Positions 46,729 to 51,896 of a DNA stretch of 64,000 nucleotides are shown piece by piece. The notes under the pieces are model-generated. The model worked only from the letters and a program-made list of their open reading frames with translations, made no database searches and had not been told where the DNA came from. The translations under genes and the position numbers were made by a program. This DNA comes from a bacterium. GTDB taxonomy: Bacteria > AUK180. The stretch spans positions 15,809 through 79,808 of the forward strand of contig JAGLGN010000034.1 of the NCBI GenBank assembly GCA_023144005.1, written 5' to 3'. The first letter of the stretch is position 1, and each line of letters begins with the position of its first letter.

Positions 46729-48336
46729 TTACTTGGCGACTTCGGTAACTCTTGTTTCTCGAATAACAATTACCTTGATCGTACCGGGATATTTCCCTTC
46801 GTCTTCTATCTTTTTTGTAATATTTCTTGCAACTATCGCTGCTTCGTCATCGTTGATATCAACATTATTTACTATTACCCTCAATTCACGCCCCGCCTGA
46901 ATAGCGAATGATTTTTCCACGCCGGTAAAGGAATTGGCGATCGACTCGAGCATTTTTACACGCTTGATATAGAATTGATAGGTTTCACGCCTTGCTCCGG
47001 GCCGAGAGGCCGAGATGGCATCCGCTACCTGAACGATAGACGCTTCCGTTGATTCATAAGGCACATCGCCGTGATGGGCCCTTATGGCATTCACGATAAG
47101 AGCGCTTTCACCGTATTTCTTGGCGATATCAGCGCCGAGCTGCTGATGATTTCCTTCCTGCTCACGGTCAATGGCTTTTCCGATATCGTGAAGGAGACCG
47201 CCGCGTATCGCATTTGCGGGGTCAAGGCCAAGCTCTGTGGCGATATAACCCGCGATATAGGCCGTTTCCTTTGTATGTTGCAGGGCATTCTGGCCATATG
47301 AACTACGGAATTTAAGCTGGCCAAGGAGTTTGATCAACTCAGGATGAATATTCGTGAAACCGAATTCGTAAACACATTCCTCCCCTGTTTTTATGATCTC
47401 CTTATTTACTTCCTTCTGCACTTTTTCGTGGATCTCCTCGATCCTCTTGGGATGTATTCTGCCGTCGGAGATCAATTTGGTAAGAACGCGCGCCGCGACC
47501 TCCCTTCTTACCGGCTGGAATGAGGATATCGTAACGACCTCGGGAGTATCGTCAATTATCATATCAACGCCCAGTAAGGCCTCAAATGTCCTGATATTCC
47601 GTCCCTCTCTTCCTATAAGGCGGCCCTTCATTTCATCATTGGGCAGCACTACATTCGAGATCGTGGATTCATTGACATAATCCACGGCAAGTTTTTCTAT
47701 GGATGAAGAAAGAATGTCAATGGCCTTCAAACCGGCCTTGGTCTTGTATTCTTCTTCGAATTTCTGCAATTTGGAAGCAAATTCGTACTGCGCTTCCTTT
47801 TCCATGAGTTCGATCAATTGATTTCGGGCCTCTTCTGCGGAAAGATTTGCTATGTTCTCAAGGTATTTGATCTGAACATCCTCCGCCTCTCTGAGCTCCC
47901 TGTATTTATCCTTGATGGTCTCATCCCGCGATCTCAGCCGGCGCTCTTTATCTTTGATATCCAGAATACGCTTTTCAATAATATCGTTCTTTCTGGTGAT
48001 ATTTTCTTCTTTCTGATTTATCCGGTTTTCCATGCTGGCGATCTCACTTCTTTTCTGAGAGGTCTCTTTTTCAAATCGTTCCCTCTCCTCGACCATTCTC
48101 GCCTTTATTTCCAGATCTGATTTTGATTTGAGTTCGGTCATCGCACGGTCGGCATCTCTTTTCGCGGTATTGACCATTTCATCCGCCTTTGACCGTGCAT
48201 TACCAAGGAGCAATTTCGCATCTTCACTCTTTTTCAGAAATTTTCGCTTTTGCAGCAGAACACCTATGAATATGCCGATGGCGGCACCGAGTACCAGCCC
48301 AGCGGCCGACAGACTGATCGTCAATATATAATTCAT
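46729..48336 (-). CDS. rny: Ribonuclease Y
   Basis: A 535-residue membrane-bound endoribonuclease that starts mRNA decay. In order: N-terminal transmembrane helix (about 4-27), long coiled coil (about 30-205, rich in E, K and R), KH domain with KGRLIGREGRNIRTFEALLG (about 235-255), and HD domain with GGLLHDIGKAIDREQ near 383 and later His residues (NHQQLGADIAKK). The length matches the family. GGGAGG precedes the ATG. The upstream 274 bases contain a promoter and a strongly foldable RNA segment, which may be a regulatory leader for this gene. Confidence 0.95.
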   Translation of the reverse strand: MNYILTISLSAAGLVLGAAIGIFIGVLLQKRKFLKKSEDAKLLLGNARSKADEMVNTAKRDADRAMTELKSKSDLEIKARMVEERERFEKETSQKRSEIASMENRINQKEENITRKNDIIEKRILDIKDKERRLRSRDETIKDKYRELREAEDVQIKYLENIANLSAEEARNQLIELMEKEAQYEFASKLQKFEEEYKTKAGLKAIDILSSSIEKLAVDYVNESTISNVVLPNDEMKGRLIGREGRNIRTFEALLGVDMIIDDTPEVVTISSFQPVRREVAARVLTKLISDGRIHPKRIEEIHEKVQKEVNKEIIKTGEECVYEFGFTNIHPELIKLLGQLKFRSSYGQNALQHTKETAYIAGYIATELGLDPANAIRGGLLHDIGKAIDREQEGNHQQLGADIAKKYGESALIVNAIRAHHGDVPYESTEASIVQVADAISASRPGARRETYQFYIKRVKMLESIANSFTGVEKSFAIQAGRELRVIVNNVDINDDEAAIVARNITKKIEDEGKYPGTIKVIVIRETRVTEVAK

Positions 48337-48465
48337 TTAATTACCCTCCCGTAGAAAAGTTCAGAATTAAGATGTTTTTGAAATATATAGAAAATTGGTA
48401 TCTTTCAACCATTCTTAATCCTTTTACTTTTATACATATATATAAACAGCACTTATTATCAAAAT

Positions 48466-48599
48466 CGACCGTGATGGGGAAAAAGGTGAACCCTGTTTTA
48501 AAGGGGGTGCGATTTACAGAGGTACTGCCCCTGCAGGGAAAGCTCCCAAGTTATAAGTGTCGGTTCAGCCTTCTTGTCATTTCTTCCGCCATCACAGCC
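48466..48599 (-). ncRNA. Candidate structured RNA between tgpA-like gene and rny
   Basis: A ~134-nt transcript is predicted from the promoter at 48605-48633. Its ends pair in a 12-bp stem (48600-48589 with 48477-48466, two G-U pairs). Inside, 48575-48562 pairs with 48492-48480 in a 13-bp helix with one bulged C. The centre has a hairpin CAGGGG-CAGTA-CCTCTG (48533-48517) and a small GGGA-GCTT-TCCC hairpin. The closed long-stem plan recalls 6S RNA, but I do not recognise a 6S consensus. No clear U-tract ends it, so it may instead be the folded 5' leader of rny. Confidence 0.5.
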
Positions 48600-48604
48600 G
48601 ATAT

Positions 48605-48633
48605 ATTATATTACTTTTGCGTATCTTTTTCAA
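48605..48633 (-). promoter_or_regulatory. Consensus-like promoter reading into the candidate RNA and rny
   Basis: Minus strand: TTGAAA (48633-48628), 17-base spacer, TATAAT (48610-48605). It overlaps the last codons and stop of the upstream gene. The predicted start near 48598 coincides with the first base of the closing stem. Confidence 0.75.
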
Positions 48634-50740
48634 CCTGTTTCTGGGTGAAATTTCCACCATCGGCCCCTCTTTTCGGATGCTTTTTCAATTTACTTCGCAG
48701 TAAACCCCAATTTCTCTCAAGTTCCGCCATACTACCCTTATCACCCTGCGTTGAATATCGGGAATAGAGCATCAGTGAAAGAAATTCCCTGAATGCATCC
48801 GCCAATTCCGGCAGAGATACCGTCAATTTCTCAACATATTCGGTCTCGGTTTCCCAAGGATCCCTCCTCACTGAAAACCGTCTGCTGATCAAAGATGTGA
48901 AATCAGAAAAAAGCAGAGCACAATATCCCATAGTTACCATACTTCTGCGGCGCTTGATATATCTGACGCCAATTCTCGCAATAATCCATAAGGCGATTAC
49001 ACCAGTCGCGATAAAAAGTATCAGCAGGATATTGGATATAAGAAATAGCCAAAGAGCGCGGAAAAATTGCGAGATCATCTTCCTTACTTTCAAAGGGACC
49101 AGATTTTGAGGGTCCATTGAAAAGAAACGGCCCAGAAGACGCTGGAGAAAGGTTCGCTGCCCGCTTTGTCCGCTGCTTGAAACAGGTGTCGCATCCATTG
49201 TGAGCCAGCCGAAATTTTCAAAGTACGCCTCTACCCAGGCATGGGCATGCGCGCCCCTGAAAAGGATCGCCCCTCTTCCCGGAGCATATTCTCCCCCCGC
49301 GAAACCCGTAACGGTCCTTGAAGGTATGCCCGCCTGGCGGAGCATTATGGCAAAAACGGTAGCAAATTGCTCACAATACCCTTTCTTGTATTCAAAGAGG
49401 AAATAATCCACCAGGTCATTTTCCTCGGGTAAAAAGGAAAACTCCATATCATAGGTGTAGCTTTCCTTCAGATATTTCGCCATGAGCACCGCTTTCTCCA
49501 TATCATCGGCAGTATCCCGAGTGATATCATTTACCAGCCCCGCCACTCGGTCACTGATGATGGGGATCTTCAGATATTGCCCCATTTGCCTTCTCTTCTC
49601 CTCGGATAATATGTTCATGGGACTTCTTTCAAAGCTCACGGGGATCTGGGAGACCACGGAATATTTGAATGGAAATTTTTCTATGGGCGGAACGAAGATA
49701 TTCGATGAATCATCTATCATCATAAAACGTGACGGAAAGCGTATCACTTCAGGATACGACTCGTAAAAGAGCACATTGGGTATCGTGATTAGATATGTGA
49801 TTATCTGAGTATCGCTCTGATACTTCGCATAATCGGACTTCTCAAGCTGCATCTTGAACTGCCATGACATATTCCTCAGCTTCCTTCTATTACTATTGCT
49901 CATGGTCCAATTGCGCCCGTCAAAGGTGTCATAGACAGCGCCTTTGAGGTAATGCACCCTTGCAGGGATATTGGTTTTCACCTCCATCACTTCTATGGGA
50001 CTGTCCCAGACCTTTCCCGAAGTCAGCGAAAATTCCAGTGAAAAGCCGGGTATGTTGACATCCCTACCCGAAGTATCGGGAGGAGCGAAGTAATTCTGAT
50101 TACGCGTGATGGGAAGATTGAAAAAATTTACATTCCAGAATCTCGGAAGCACCGAATATATCAAAAGGGCTATCACAAAACCGATTAAGGTAACGCCAAG
50201 TGATGTGCGGGCAACGGAGAACATCTCTTTGGAGATCTTTATCCCTTTGCCGAATCCCCTTTCCAATGGAGGGACCAGGAAGATAAAAAACGAAATGGAA
50301 AGGAAGGTAAAGGCAATGGCAAATACCAGATAGAGCAGGTCATAACTGATAGATGCATCGTAGATCATCAATATGAAAGCACCCGCGTAAAAATTGGTCA
50401 GAAGACGCTTTGAGATAAGGTAGAATGACATCAGTGACAGGCCCCAGGTGAAGGCGATCGCCAGTATATCCTTCAAGACATAATACCCTTCCCATATCGC
50501 GACGCTCTGGACGACGAACACTATCATAAAAAGGAGTCCGATGAGATTCTCTACGATCAAATTGCCCTTTTTGCCCCAATTGGAGGCCGACACGAAGATA
50601 CCGAGAGAGAAAAGCAGCGTTTGAAAGAACCAGCGGAGCAGAGCGTCTCCGAGGTAATAATTCATCAAAAGTGTGGTTATCAGGTAAAAACCAGATATAT
50701 GAAGAAGCAGGACGATCTTCTTGCGCCTAATTGTGAACAT
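48611..50740 (-). CDS. TgpA-like membrane transglutaminase (DUF3488/DUF4129 type)
   Basis: About 709 residues. Six to seven N-terminal transmembrane helices (about 10-200) precede a large extracytoplasmic domain with the transglutaminase triad: Cys in KKGYCEQFATVF, His in HAHAWVEAYF and Asp in LTMDATP. A further helix (about 565-590) and a cytoplasmic C-terminal DUF4129-like region follow. Together with DUF58 and MoxR genes upstream it forms a widespread conserved trio of unclear envelope function. ATG at 50740 is preferred (GAGGT eight bases upstream) over TTG at 50746. Its end lies within the promoter for the downstream RNA/rny. Confidence 0.88.
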   Translation of the reverse strand: MFTIRRKKIVLLLHISGFYLITTLLMNYYLGDALLRWFFQTLLFSLGIFVSASNWGKKGNLIVENLIGLLFMIVFVVQSVAIWEGYYVLKDILAIAFTWGLSLMSFYLISKRLLTNFYAGAFILMIYDASISYDLLYLVFAIAFTFLSISFFIFLVPPLERGFGKGIKISKEMFSVARTSLGVTLIGFVIALLIYSVLPRFWNVNFFNLPITRNQNYFAPPDTSGRDVNIPGFSLEFSLTSGKVWDSPIEVMEVKTNIPARVHYLKGAVYDTFDGRNWTMSNSNRRKLRNMSWQFKMQLEKSDYAKYQSDTQIITYLITIPNVLFYESYPEVIRFPSRFMMIDDSSNIFVPPIEKFPFKYSVVSQIPVSFERSPMNILSEEKRRQMGQYLKIPIISDRVAGLVNDITRDTADDMEKAVLMAKYLKESYTYDMEFSFLPEENDLVDYFLFEYKKGYCEQFATVFAIMLRQAGIPSRTVTGFAGGEYAPGRGAILFRGAHAHAWVEAYFENFGWLTMDATPVSSSGQSGQRTFLQRLLGRFFSMDPQNLVPLKVRKMISQFFRALWLFLISNILLILFIATGVIALWIIARIGVRYIKRRRSMVTMGYCALLFSDFTSLISRRFSVRRDPWETETEYVEKLTVSLPELADAFREFLSLMLYSRYSTQGDKGSMAELERNWGLLRSKLKKHPKRGADGGNFTQKQVEKDTQK

Positions 50741-51896
50741 TGTCAAAGACCTCGTTTAGCCGGCGCCGATCGCCGCCAAAGAAAATATAATCATTGGCAA
50801 TGGCGGCTTCAAGCATCTTTCTCCTATCCGTTTCCCCCTGGGAGATATGCACTACCACCACGAGAACCCGTCTTCTGGACAGGTCCGAAAGGGCGCTTGT
50901 AATATATTTTGTGTCTGAATTCGTTACCACAAAGAGTATGTCTTCCTGAGCAATGAACTGGTCGATCGTGGGAAAGCTCTTGATATCCTGACGCTCCCAC
51001 CATGTGAAGGTCATTTCTTTTAAAAGATTGAAGAATTGGCCCTTTCCGCCCGAAGGCAGAGAAATCCTGCTTCCTATGACAGTGCCGATCACGCTGTCCG
51101 AATCAATTCTGTTCTTGATTATGGATGCGGCTACCCTGACCACATCAGCGTTCCATTGGTCCTTGGCGAGATCCTTGAGCATAGGAATCACCCATATCCT
51201 TTTTCCGCGCGGCTCCTCCCTTATCTTGACCATCAGCTCATCTTTCTTTGCCGAGATCTTCCAGTCGATATCCCGTATTCGGTCACCGATCTCATACGGC
51301 TTAATACCCCAGATATTCTCCCCGCTGCCGATCTTTACCCCGAATTGCTCATTCTCCGACATGGCTTCCAGCCGTTCATCTGGAAAAACCGTAAAATCAA
51401 AATATTCGGGAAGGACAACGATACGGTCATTGAGCGTGTACTCTTTGTAAAACTTTGATATCGCTATGGGAAATGAGGATGATATGCTTATCTTATCCAG
51501 GAAGAAGACACCCGGTATATTAAATGTAAAGCCGGCTTCAACCTGCAGCTGCTTTCCCTTTTCAAGGCCGTCGACAAAAGCCGGCTCGCTTCCGGCATGC
51601 ACGGGAAAAGCATCCTCGATCTCAATGAATCTCGCGCGATTCGGAGAACTTATTAAATATGAGTATTTGACCTGTTCTTTCTCGTAAACCTCCGATTTGA
51701 TCCTGCGTTTGATATTGATATTGCGAACATTGTTATTTCCTGATATCATCGCAAGTATCATAATAATACCCATAAGGATGCCCATGAAGAAGAGCAGATT
51801 CAATCCTGTATTCACCGCGGCGGCGAATACGACGATATTCAAGACGATATAATTAAATATTTTGCGCCCGTAACGGGTTCTAGTGTACTTTCTCAT
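50727..51896 (-). CDS. DUF58 domain-containing membrane protein
   Basis: A 389-residue protein with two N-terminal transmembrane helices (about 13-55) and a C-terminal DUF58 region carrying the hallmark YEIGDRIRDIDWKISAKKDEL (in parts) and a von Willebrand A-like fold. DUF58 proteins nearly always accompany MoxR ATPases and TgpA-like transglutaminases, and this one overlaps the latter by 14-20 bases. The moxR gene, usually adjacent, is separated here by a 589-base repeat-rich gap. No ribosome binding site is evident before the ATG (AUUUAUG context), so expression may be weak or leaderless. Confidence 0.88.
   Translation of the reverse strand: MRKYTRTRYGRKIFNYIVLNIVVFAAAVNTGLNLLFFMGILMGIIMILAMISGNNNVRNINIKRRIKSEVYEKEQVKYSYLISSPNRARFIEIEDAFPVHAGSEPAFVDGLEKGKQLQVEAGFTFNIPGVFFLDKISISSSFPIAISKFYKEYTLNDRIVVLPEYFDFTVFPDERLEAMSENEQFGVKIGSGENIWGIKPYEIGDRIRDIDWKISAKKDELMVKIREEPRGKRIWVIPMLKDLAKDQWNADVVRVAASIIKNRIDSDSVIGTVIGSRISLPSGGKGQFFNLLKEMTFTWWERQDIKSFPTIDQFIAQEDILFVVTNSDTKYITSALSDLSRRRVLVVVVHISQGETDRRKMLEAAIANDYIFFGGDRRRLNEVFDNVHN

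Follow-up and report, generated by a model that had tools for sequence, protein, structure and literature searches.

What is the structured RNA that lies ahead of rny, the gene for RNase Y, in this bacterial DNA? A first-pass annotation of the window, by which we mean the whole 64,000-nt stretch that was analysed, had offered two answers: a free noncoding RNA, 6S-like in outline, or a folded leader of rny that senses RNase activity. 6S RNA is a small RNA that mimics an open promoter and so parks RNA polymerase. The leader of E. coli rne controls the stability of rne mRNA through RNase E cleavage. We conclude, with a probability of roughly 0.94, that the locus is a shortened 6S (SsrS) gene of an uncultured phylum, which has its own promoter, encodes an RNA that would park polymerase and release it through pRNA synthesis, and is followed by rny. 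The phylum consists of seven genomes in the collection examined. The locus is laid out as follows.

48611 to 50746, upstream of the RNA: TgpA-type transglutaminase gene (Pfam TgpA_N and Transglut_core)
48605 to 48633, minus strand: sigma70-type promoter of the 6S gene, with the -35 TTGAAA at 48633-48628, a 17-nt spacer and the -10 TATAAT at 48610-48605
48462 to 48603, minus strand: 6S RNA, from a full-length RF00013 match, covariation, and its position as the ortholog of a 6S scoring 64.1 bits
48337 to 48461, minus strand: 6S-to-rny spacer of 125 nt with the Shine-Dalgarno sequence GGGAGGG, read from the sequence
46729 to 48336, minus strand: rny, RNase Y, with RNase_Y_N, KH and HD domains (Pfam; TIGR03319 above cut-off)

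The promoter of the RNA, TTGAAA-N17-TATAAT on the minus strand, matches 11 of the 12 consensus bases and outranks every other promoter-like site in the 10 kb scanned. As had been claimed for it, it overlaps the end of the transglutaminase gene: the -35 falls within the last codons (stop at 48611), and the -10 lies just beyond the stop. The predicted transcript start, 5-8 nt past the -10, is at the foot of the closing stem of the RNA. The promoter is kept in four other genomes of the family as TTGAAA or TTGCAA and TATAAT, with a spacer of 16-17 nt, and the 6S of a sister family (G005) is preceded by TTGTAA...TATAAT.

In the genus mate G001 (L031:443-2683), an insertion of about 2.2 kb lies between the transglutaminase gene and the 6S promoter, where it replaces window bases 48675-48655. 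It encodes a reading frame resembling an ArsR-type regulator and holds a 24-base repeat, TTGCGTATTTGGTTAAATACGGAA, in three copies and two orientations. The transglutaminase gene is thereby interrupted some 20 codons short of its stop. Because the insertion spares the promoter, 6S, and rny, which are intact, these three form a unit separate from the upstream operon.

The predicted transcript, on the minus strand, is about 135-142 nt long, and the mature RNA probably extends from about 48600 or 48598 to 48466. The minimum free energy of the RNA from 48600 to 48466 is -51.2 kcal/mol, compared with a shuffle mean of -35.3 (z = -4.18), and none of 200 shuffles was as stable; the z values obtained for the RNA range from -4.2 to -4.8. 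The plus strand of 48466-48633 folds no better than its shuffles (z = -0.07), and the minus strand was chosen by both the shuffle z-score and Rfam. The parts of the RNA, in order from its 5' end to the apex and back, are these.

48584 to 48602, minus strand: 5' arm of the closing stem P1, from the minimum free energy fold and covarying pairs; a putative mimic of the downstream duplex
48562 to 48573, minus strand: 5' strand of helix P2, from the sequence, the RF00013 alignment and the pRNA prediction
48559 to 48572, minus strand: putative pRNA template, with the predicted pRNA 5'-GUCGGUUCAGCCUU...
48548 to 48561, minus strand: 5' strand of the central bubble, from the RF00013 alignment and comparison with the E. 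coli U44 context
48542 to 48547, minus strand: 5' strand, GGGAGC, of the helix upstream of the bubble, near-invariant in the family
48515 to 48535, minus strand: apical hairpin of 8 bp with a pentaloop, 100% of cells paired and two covarying pairs
48505 to 48510, minus strand: 3' strand, GCACCC, of the helix upstream of the bubble
48491 to 48505, minus strand: 3' strand of the central bubble, with the -10-like CUUUAAAAC; can form the 3'-bubble hairpin CCCU...AGGG
48464 to 48481, minus strand: 3' arm of P1, from the minimum free energy fold and covarying pairs

The closing stem is made up of 14 bp, one bulged C, and 4 more bp. It had been described as a 12-bp stem with the transcript start on it; the stem and the start at its foot stand, and its length exceeds 12 bp. 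The inner helix, described as 13 bp with one bulge, has 11 pairs and a single bulge.

With gathering thresholds applied, Rfam reports no family anywhere in the window. An Rfam scan including 6S had been named as a check, and a permissive scan of 401 nt aligned the RNA with positions 1-187 of the 187 in the 6S model, RF00013, at 42.2 bits (E = 2.4e-7), which is 4.2 bits under the gathering score of 46.4. This is the single 6S match genome-wide (E = 3.7e-7). The other Rfam matches in the 401-nt scan have E values of 1.7 or worse and belong to irrelevant families. Elsewhere in the family, RF00013 gives 25.3 bits in G004, while G003 and G002 have no listed match. A match in G006, at 11.4 bits, was set aside as chance. 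The 6S of the sister family G005 scores 64.1 bits, above the cut-off. It lies past the end of a ZapA-like frame (LAVLTALYIADELF...), with a PheT-like frame farther upstream, both identified by eye rather than by a Pfam scan. The contig stops shortly past the 6S, and its end shares an exact 141-nt overlap with the contig that carries rny; thus, the order in G005 is zapA-6S-310 nt-rny. The short RNA of the family occupies the place of the standard 6S in the sister family, and this is the decisive link. Typical neighbours of 6S are zapA and ygfA, and the neighbourhood in the sister family is of this type; at the window locus, only rny is left of it, and the upstream gene is the transglutaminase gene.

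The genus mate (G001) and three other genera (G002, G003, and G004) have the same layout leading into rny, with TTGAAA or TTGCAA, then TATAAT, the rod-like RNA, a spacer, and a Shine-Dalgarno sequence. A covariance model, R1, was trained on just two sequences, the window RNA and the copy in its genus mate, which is 99% identical; it recovers the RNAs of the three further genera with E values of 7.5e-16, 1.2e-13, and 1.6e-11. It also matches, weakly (E = 0.021), a clear 6S of an unrelated phylum (L002) at the 6S place. R1 also matches the opposite strand weakly (E = 0.002-0.003), as a rod would lead one to expect.

Plain MAFFT misaligned the closing stem, and covariation was therefore counted on a model-guided alignment of the four genera, A4, and checked by a hand-paired table. 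In this structure-guided alignment, 95.5% of cells are paired, compared with 86.2% for shuffled columns and 46-52% for slid controls, figures that lean toward the fold because A4 was fitted to the structure derived from the window RNA. Fourteen pairs are changed on both sides (shuffled mean 6.7), and neither the paired cells nor the two-sided changes were equalled by any of 500 shuffles. The compensatory changes are spread across P1, P2, P3, and the apical hairpin; those of P1, the apical hairpin, and the inner stem beyond the bulge recur when the pairs are tabulated by hand. Besides the paired-cell figures, the fold was checked by this table, by the shuffles, and by the Rfam match. A lack of covariation in relatives had been set beforehand as refuting the RNA; covariation is strong in the four family genera, and the RNA was not refuted. 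Together with the 11/12 promoter and the fold, this supports the original argument that the coincidence of promoter, start, and stem marks a real RNA.

The border of P2 and the 5' strand of the bubble carries the pRNA template motif, CUGAACCGAC. In the RF00013 alignment, this parallels CUGAGCCGAU in the pRNA start region of E. coli 6S. From this parallel, the pRNA is predicted to begin GUCGGUUCAGCC, opposite the C at 48559; in two of the genera the predicted start is AUUGGUUCGC. The motif GGCAGNACC is also found in a few unrelated loci and so is non-diagnostic on its own. When the template nucleotides are held unpaired in the fold prediction, a 3'-bubble hairpin forms in all four genera, CCCU...AGGG in the window RNA and CCCUAA...UUAGGG in two other genera. 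The minimum free energy fold of the free RNA in G002-G004 already has this hairpin, and the bubble is not fully open. Likewise, the free 6S-1 RNA of B. subtilis already has a 3'-bubble hairpin (PMC8876501).

6S RNA imitates an open promoter by means of a -35-like region in its apical arm and a -10-like region in its 3' bubble, and RNA polymerase copies the 5' side of the bubble into a pRNA, which leads to refolding and release (PMC8876501). We propose a corresponding mechanism for the window RNA, on the model of 6S in E. coli and B. subtilis. Transcription from its own housekeeping promoter would give a rod of about 135-142 nt with an open central bubble. When nutrients are short, this RNA would bind the housekeeping RNA polymerase holoenzyme as a mock open promoter, in which the closing stem would take the place of downstream DNA, the 3' side of the bubble would mimic the -10 element, and the apical hairpin would provide the -35 contact. 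Once NTPs are available again, the polymerase would copy the 5' strand of the bubble, beginning opposite 48559, to give the pRNA (GUCGGUUCAGCC...). This synthesis would open P2, so that the 3'-bubble hairpin could form and the polymerase be released.

The 6S RNAs of the family are 128-142 nt long as model matches, whereas the RF00013 matches in other genomes have a median length of 182 nt and are never shorter than 150 nt, a comparison affected by the bias of an RF00013 search against shorter forms of 6S. The apical motif GGCAG(U/A)ACC, at 48529-48521 in the window, is invariant in the family, and the apical loop is GGCAGUACC. The distance from the apical motif to the -10-like segment of the 3' bubble is exactly 18 nt in all four genera, which is close to the 17 nt between the elements of promoters. 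We infer that the apical arm has been pared down to the -35 contact, and it is possible that the apical loop is a sequence-specific contact for sigma.

Is the neighbourhood with rny peculiar to this family? We mapped RF00013 and TIGR03319 in 241 genomes from across the domain, and both genes could be placed in 108 genomes outside the phylum, with G001 and G005 left out. Of these 108, 55 (G040, G055, G158, and G239 included) carry 6S no more than 4 kb upstream of rny in the same orientation, and in 32 the distance is no more than 600 nt; the chance expectation is about 0.1 genome, and the count is a lower bound because of contig breaks. Pfam scans of the gene preceding 6S gave zapA in all four cases covered. 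Where a gene intervenes between 6S and rny, the scanned cases gave 5-formyltetrahydrofolate cyclo-ligase (ygfA) three times and an AAA ATPase once. Outside the phylum, the order with ygfA is exemplified by L004, L010, and L076, and rny is directly next to 6S in L011, L028, L005, L057, L061, L063, L075, L080, L081, and others. In L078 and L008, a gene for a RarA/RuvB-like AAA ATPase replaces ygfA between 6S and rny. The arrangement zapA-6S-(ygfA)-rny is a widely kept and probably old gene order. We came across no description of a 6S-rny linkage in our search of open-access papers. Among the sampled genomes outside the phylum that have both genes, about half place a polymerase-parking RNA just upstream of the gene for the initiator of mRNA decay. 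This wider gene order is a by-product of the analysis that is more interesting than the RNA itself.

No terminator was detected at the scan threshold between 6S and rny. The spacer is poorly conserved in sequence and length, at about 75-130 nt in the family and 310 nt in the sister family. In the window, it holds a weak promoter-like site, TTGAAA-N15-TATATT from 48408, which matches 10 of 12 bases with a poor 15-nt spacer, and rny may therefore start from its own promoter. Read-through from 6S into rny is plausible because the strongest promoter is that of 6S and no terminator passed the scan. Co-transcription, with 6S cut from a longer 6S-rny transcript, is likewise plausible, and 6S would probably be excised from, or partly read through into, the rny transcript. 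A terminator-like hairpin, GCCCC...GGGGC followed by TTTT, is present between 6S and rny in G004 (L043:1393-1501), in this genus only; there, 6S and rny may be uncoupled.

Might the RNA instead be a novel structured RNA that resembles 6S merely as a rod with a bubble? Its Rfam score is below gathering, and a model of the family RNAs, R2, matches only the family's own five genomes among the 241. However, the full-length RF00013 alignment covers the conserved bubble sequences and is the sole match genome-wide, and the RNA is a positional ortholog of the sister-family 6S, which scores over the cut-off and lies between zapA and rny. We regard a novel RNA as extremely improbable. It is only slightly easier to see the RNA as mainly a cis-acting 5' leader that controls the stability of rny mRNA through RNase Y cleavage, as in rne. 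The RNA and the rny gene that follows it do share a strand and are 125 nt apart, with a strong promoter ahead of the RNA and no terminator between them in the scan, and the RNA-rny order is kept in all family genomes where it is visible. However, the conserved parts all belong to 6S, the poorly conserved part is the spacer to rny, ygfA or another gene often intervenes in other genomes, and the weak promoter-like site lies inside the would-be leader. Thus, the RNase-sensing leader of the first-pass annotation finds no direct support, and we consider a mainly cis-acting role very unlikely. The free, 6S-like noncoding RNA proposed as its alternative was right, for the covariance model, covariation, functional motifs, and position show that the RNA is 6S. 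A 6S RNA invisible to Rfam is thereby added to an uncultured phylum, and annotation at the gathering cut-off would miss it.

The RNA could also do both: 6S would act in trans, and, before its separation from rny mRNA, it would allow polymerase, or processing by RNase Y, to set the output of rny, coupling transcription capacity to RNA decay. This would fit the position of 6S directly upstream of rny in many distant genomes, as well as two findings in B. subtilis: rny mRNA is bound by RNA polymerase at about 64 times background, and rny has a genetic link to the genes for RNA polymerase subunits (PMC11077062). However, the B. subtilis evidence concerns contact between RNA polymerase and rny mRNA, not a linkage of 6S with rny, and shared ancestry and promoter sharing alone can explain the conserved order. 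We therefore think a dual role unlikely. A more general proposal, also unlikely, is that the 6S-(ygfA)-rny order is a circuit, in which polymerase binding to the 6S part, or excision of 6S by RNase Y, would tie RNase Y output to free RNA polymerase, and that the apical arm in the family has also shrunk to a sequence-specific hairpin replacing the long -35-like duplex. If the circuit is real, the capacity for RNA decay would follow the capacity for transcription. The widespread 6S-rny order and the B. subtilis results (PMC11077062) thus make a coupling of transcription and decay worth testing, and they are not evidence for such coupling here.

The shortened 6S that we favour can be compared with several known systems. 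Like the 5' leader of rne, it is a structured RNA located 5' of the gene for a decay-initiating endonuclease, but it has no conserved element like those of the rne leader, and its conservation is that of 6S. 6S-Flavo (RF01685), a shortened 6S variant of Flavobacteria, is a precedent for a lineage-specific shortened 6S; its model gave no match at E <= 10 in the RNA region. Ms1 RNA of Actinobacteria is also a structured RNA related to 6S, and it is found by gene neighbourhood where sequence search fails (PMC9130861). However, Ms1 binds core polymerase and adjoins a HAD hydrolase gene, whereas the neighbours of the window RNA are the transglutaminase gene and rny, and the HAD hydrolase neighbourhood of Ms1 is absent at the window locus. 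The E. coli ssrS-ygfA transcript is processed to 6S (PMC7641849 and references there). In both cases, 6S is directly upstream of the next gene, with which it is co-transcribed in E. coli, but in the window that gene is rny, with no ygfA between.

With the 6S RNAs of RF00013 (E. coli ssrS and B. subtilis 6S-1), the window RNA shares the closing stem, the central bubble, and the apical arm, together with a pRNA template motif and a 3'-bubble hairpin, as well as its own sigma70 promoter, a single copy, and a gene order related to zapA-ssrS-ygfA. It differs in that the RNAs of its family are 128-142 nt long rather than about 180-200, the apical arm is one 8-bp hairpin with the invariant GGCAG(U/A)ACC, the window RNA is 4 bits under the gathering score, and rny is directly next to it. 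Truncated 6S-1 RNAs have been assayed in vitro (PMC8876501); the short 6S of the family is their counterpart in nature, and it shows that a 6S RNA can be reduced to about 130 nt there with the -35-like spacing fixed.
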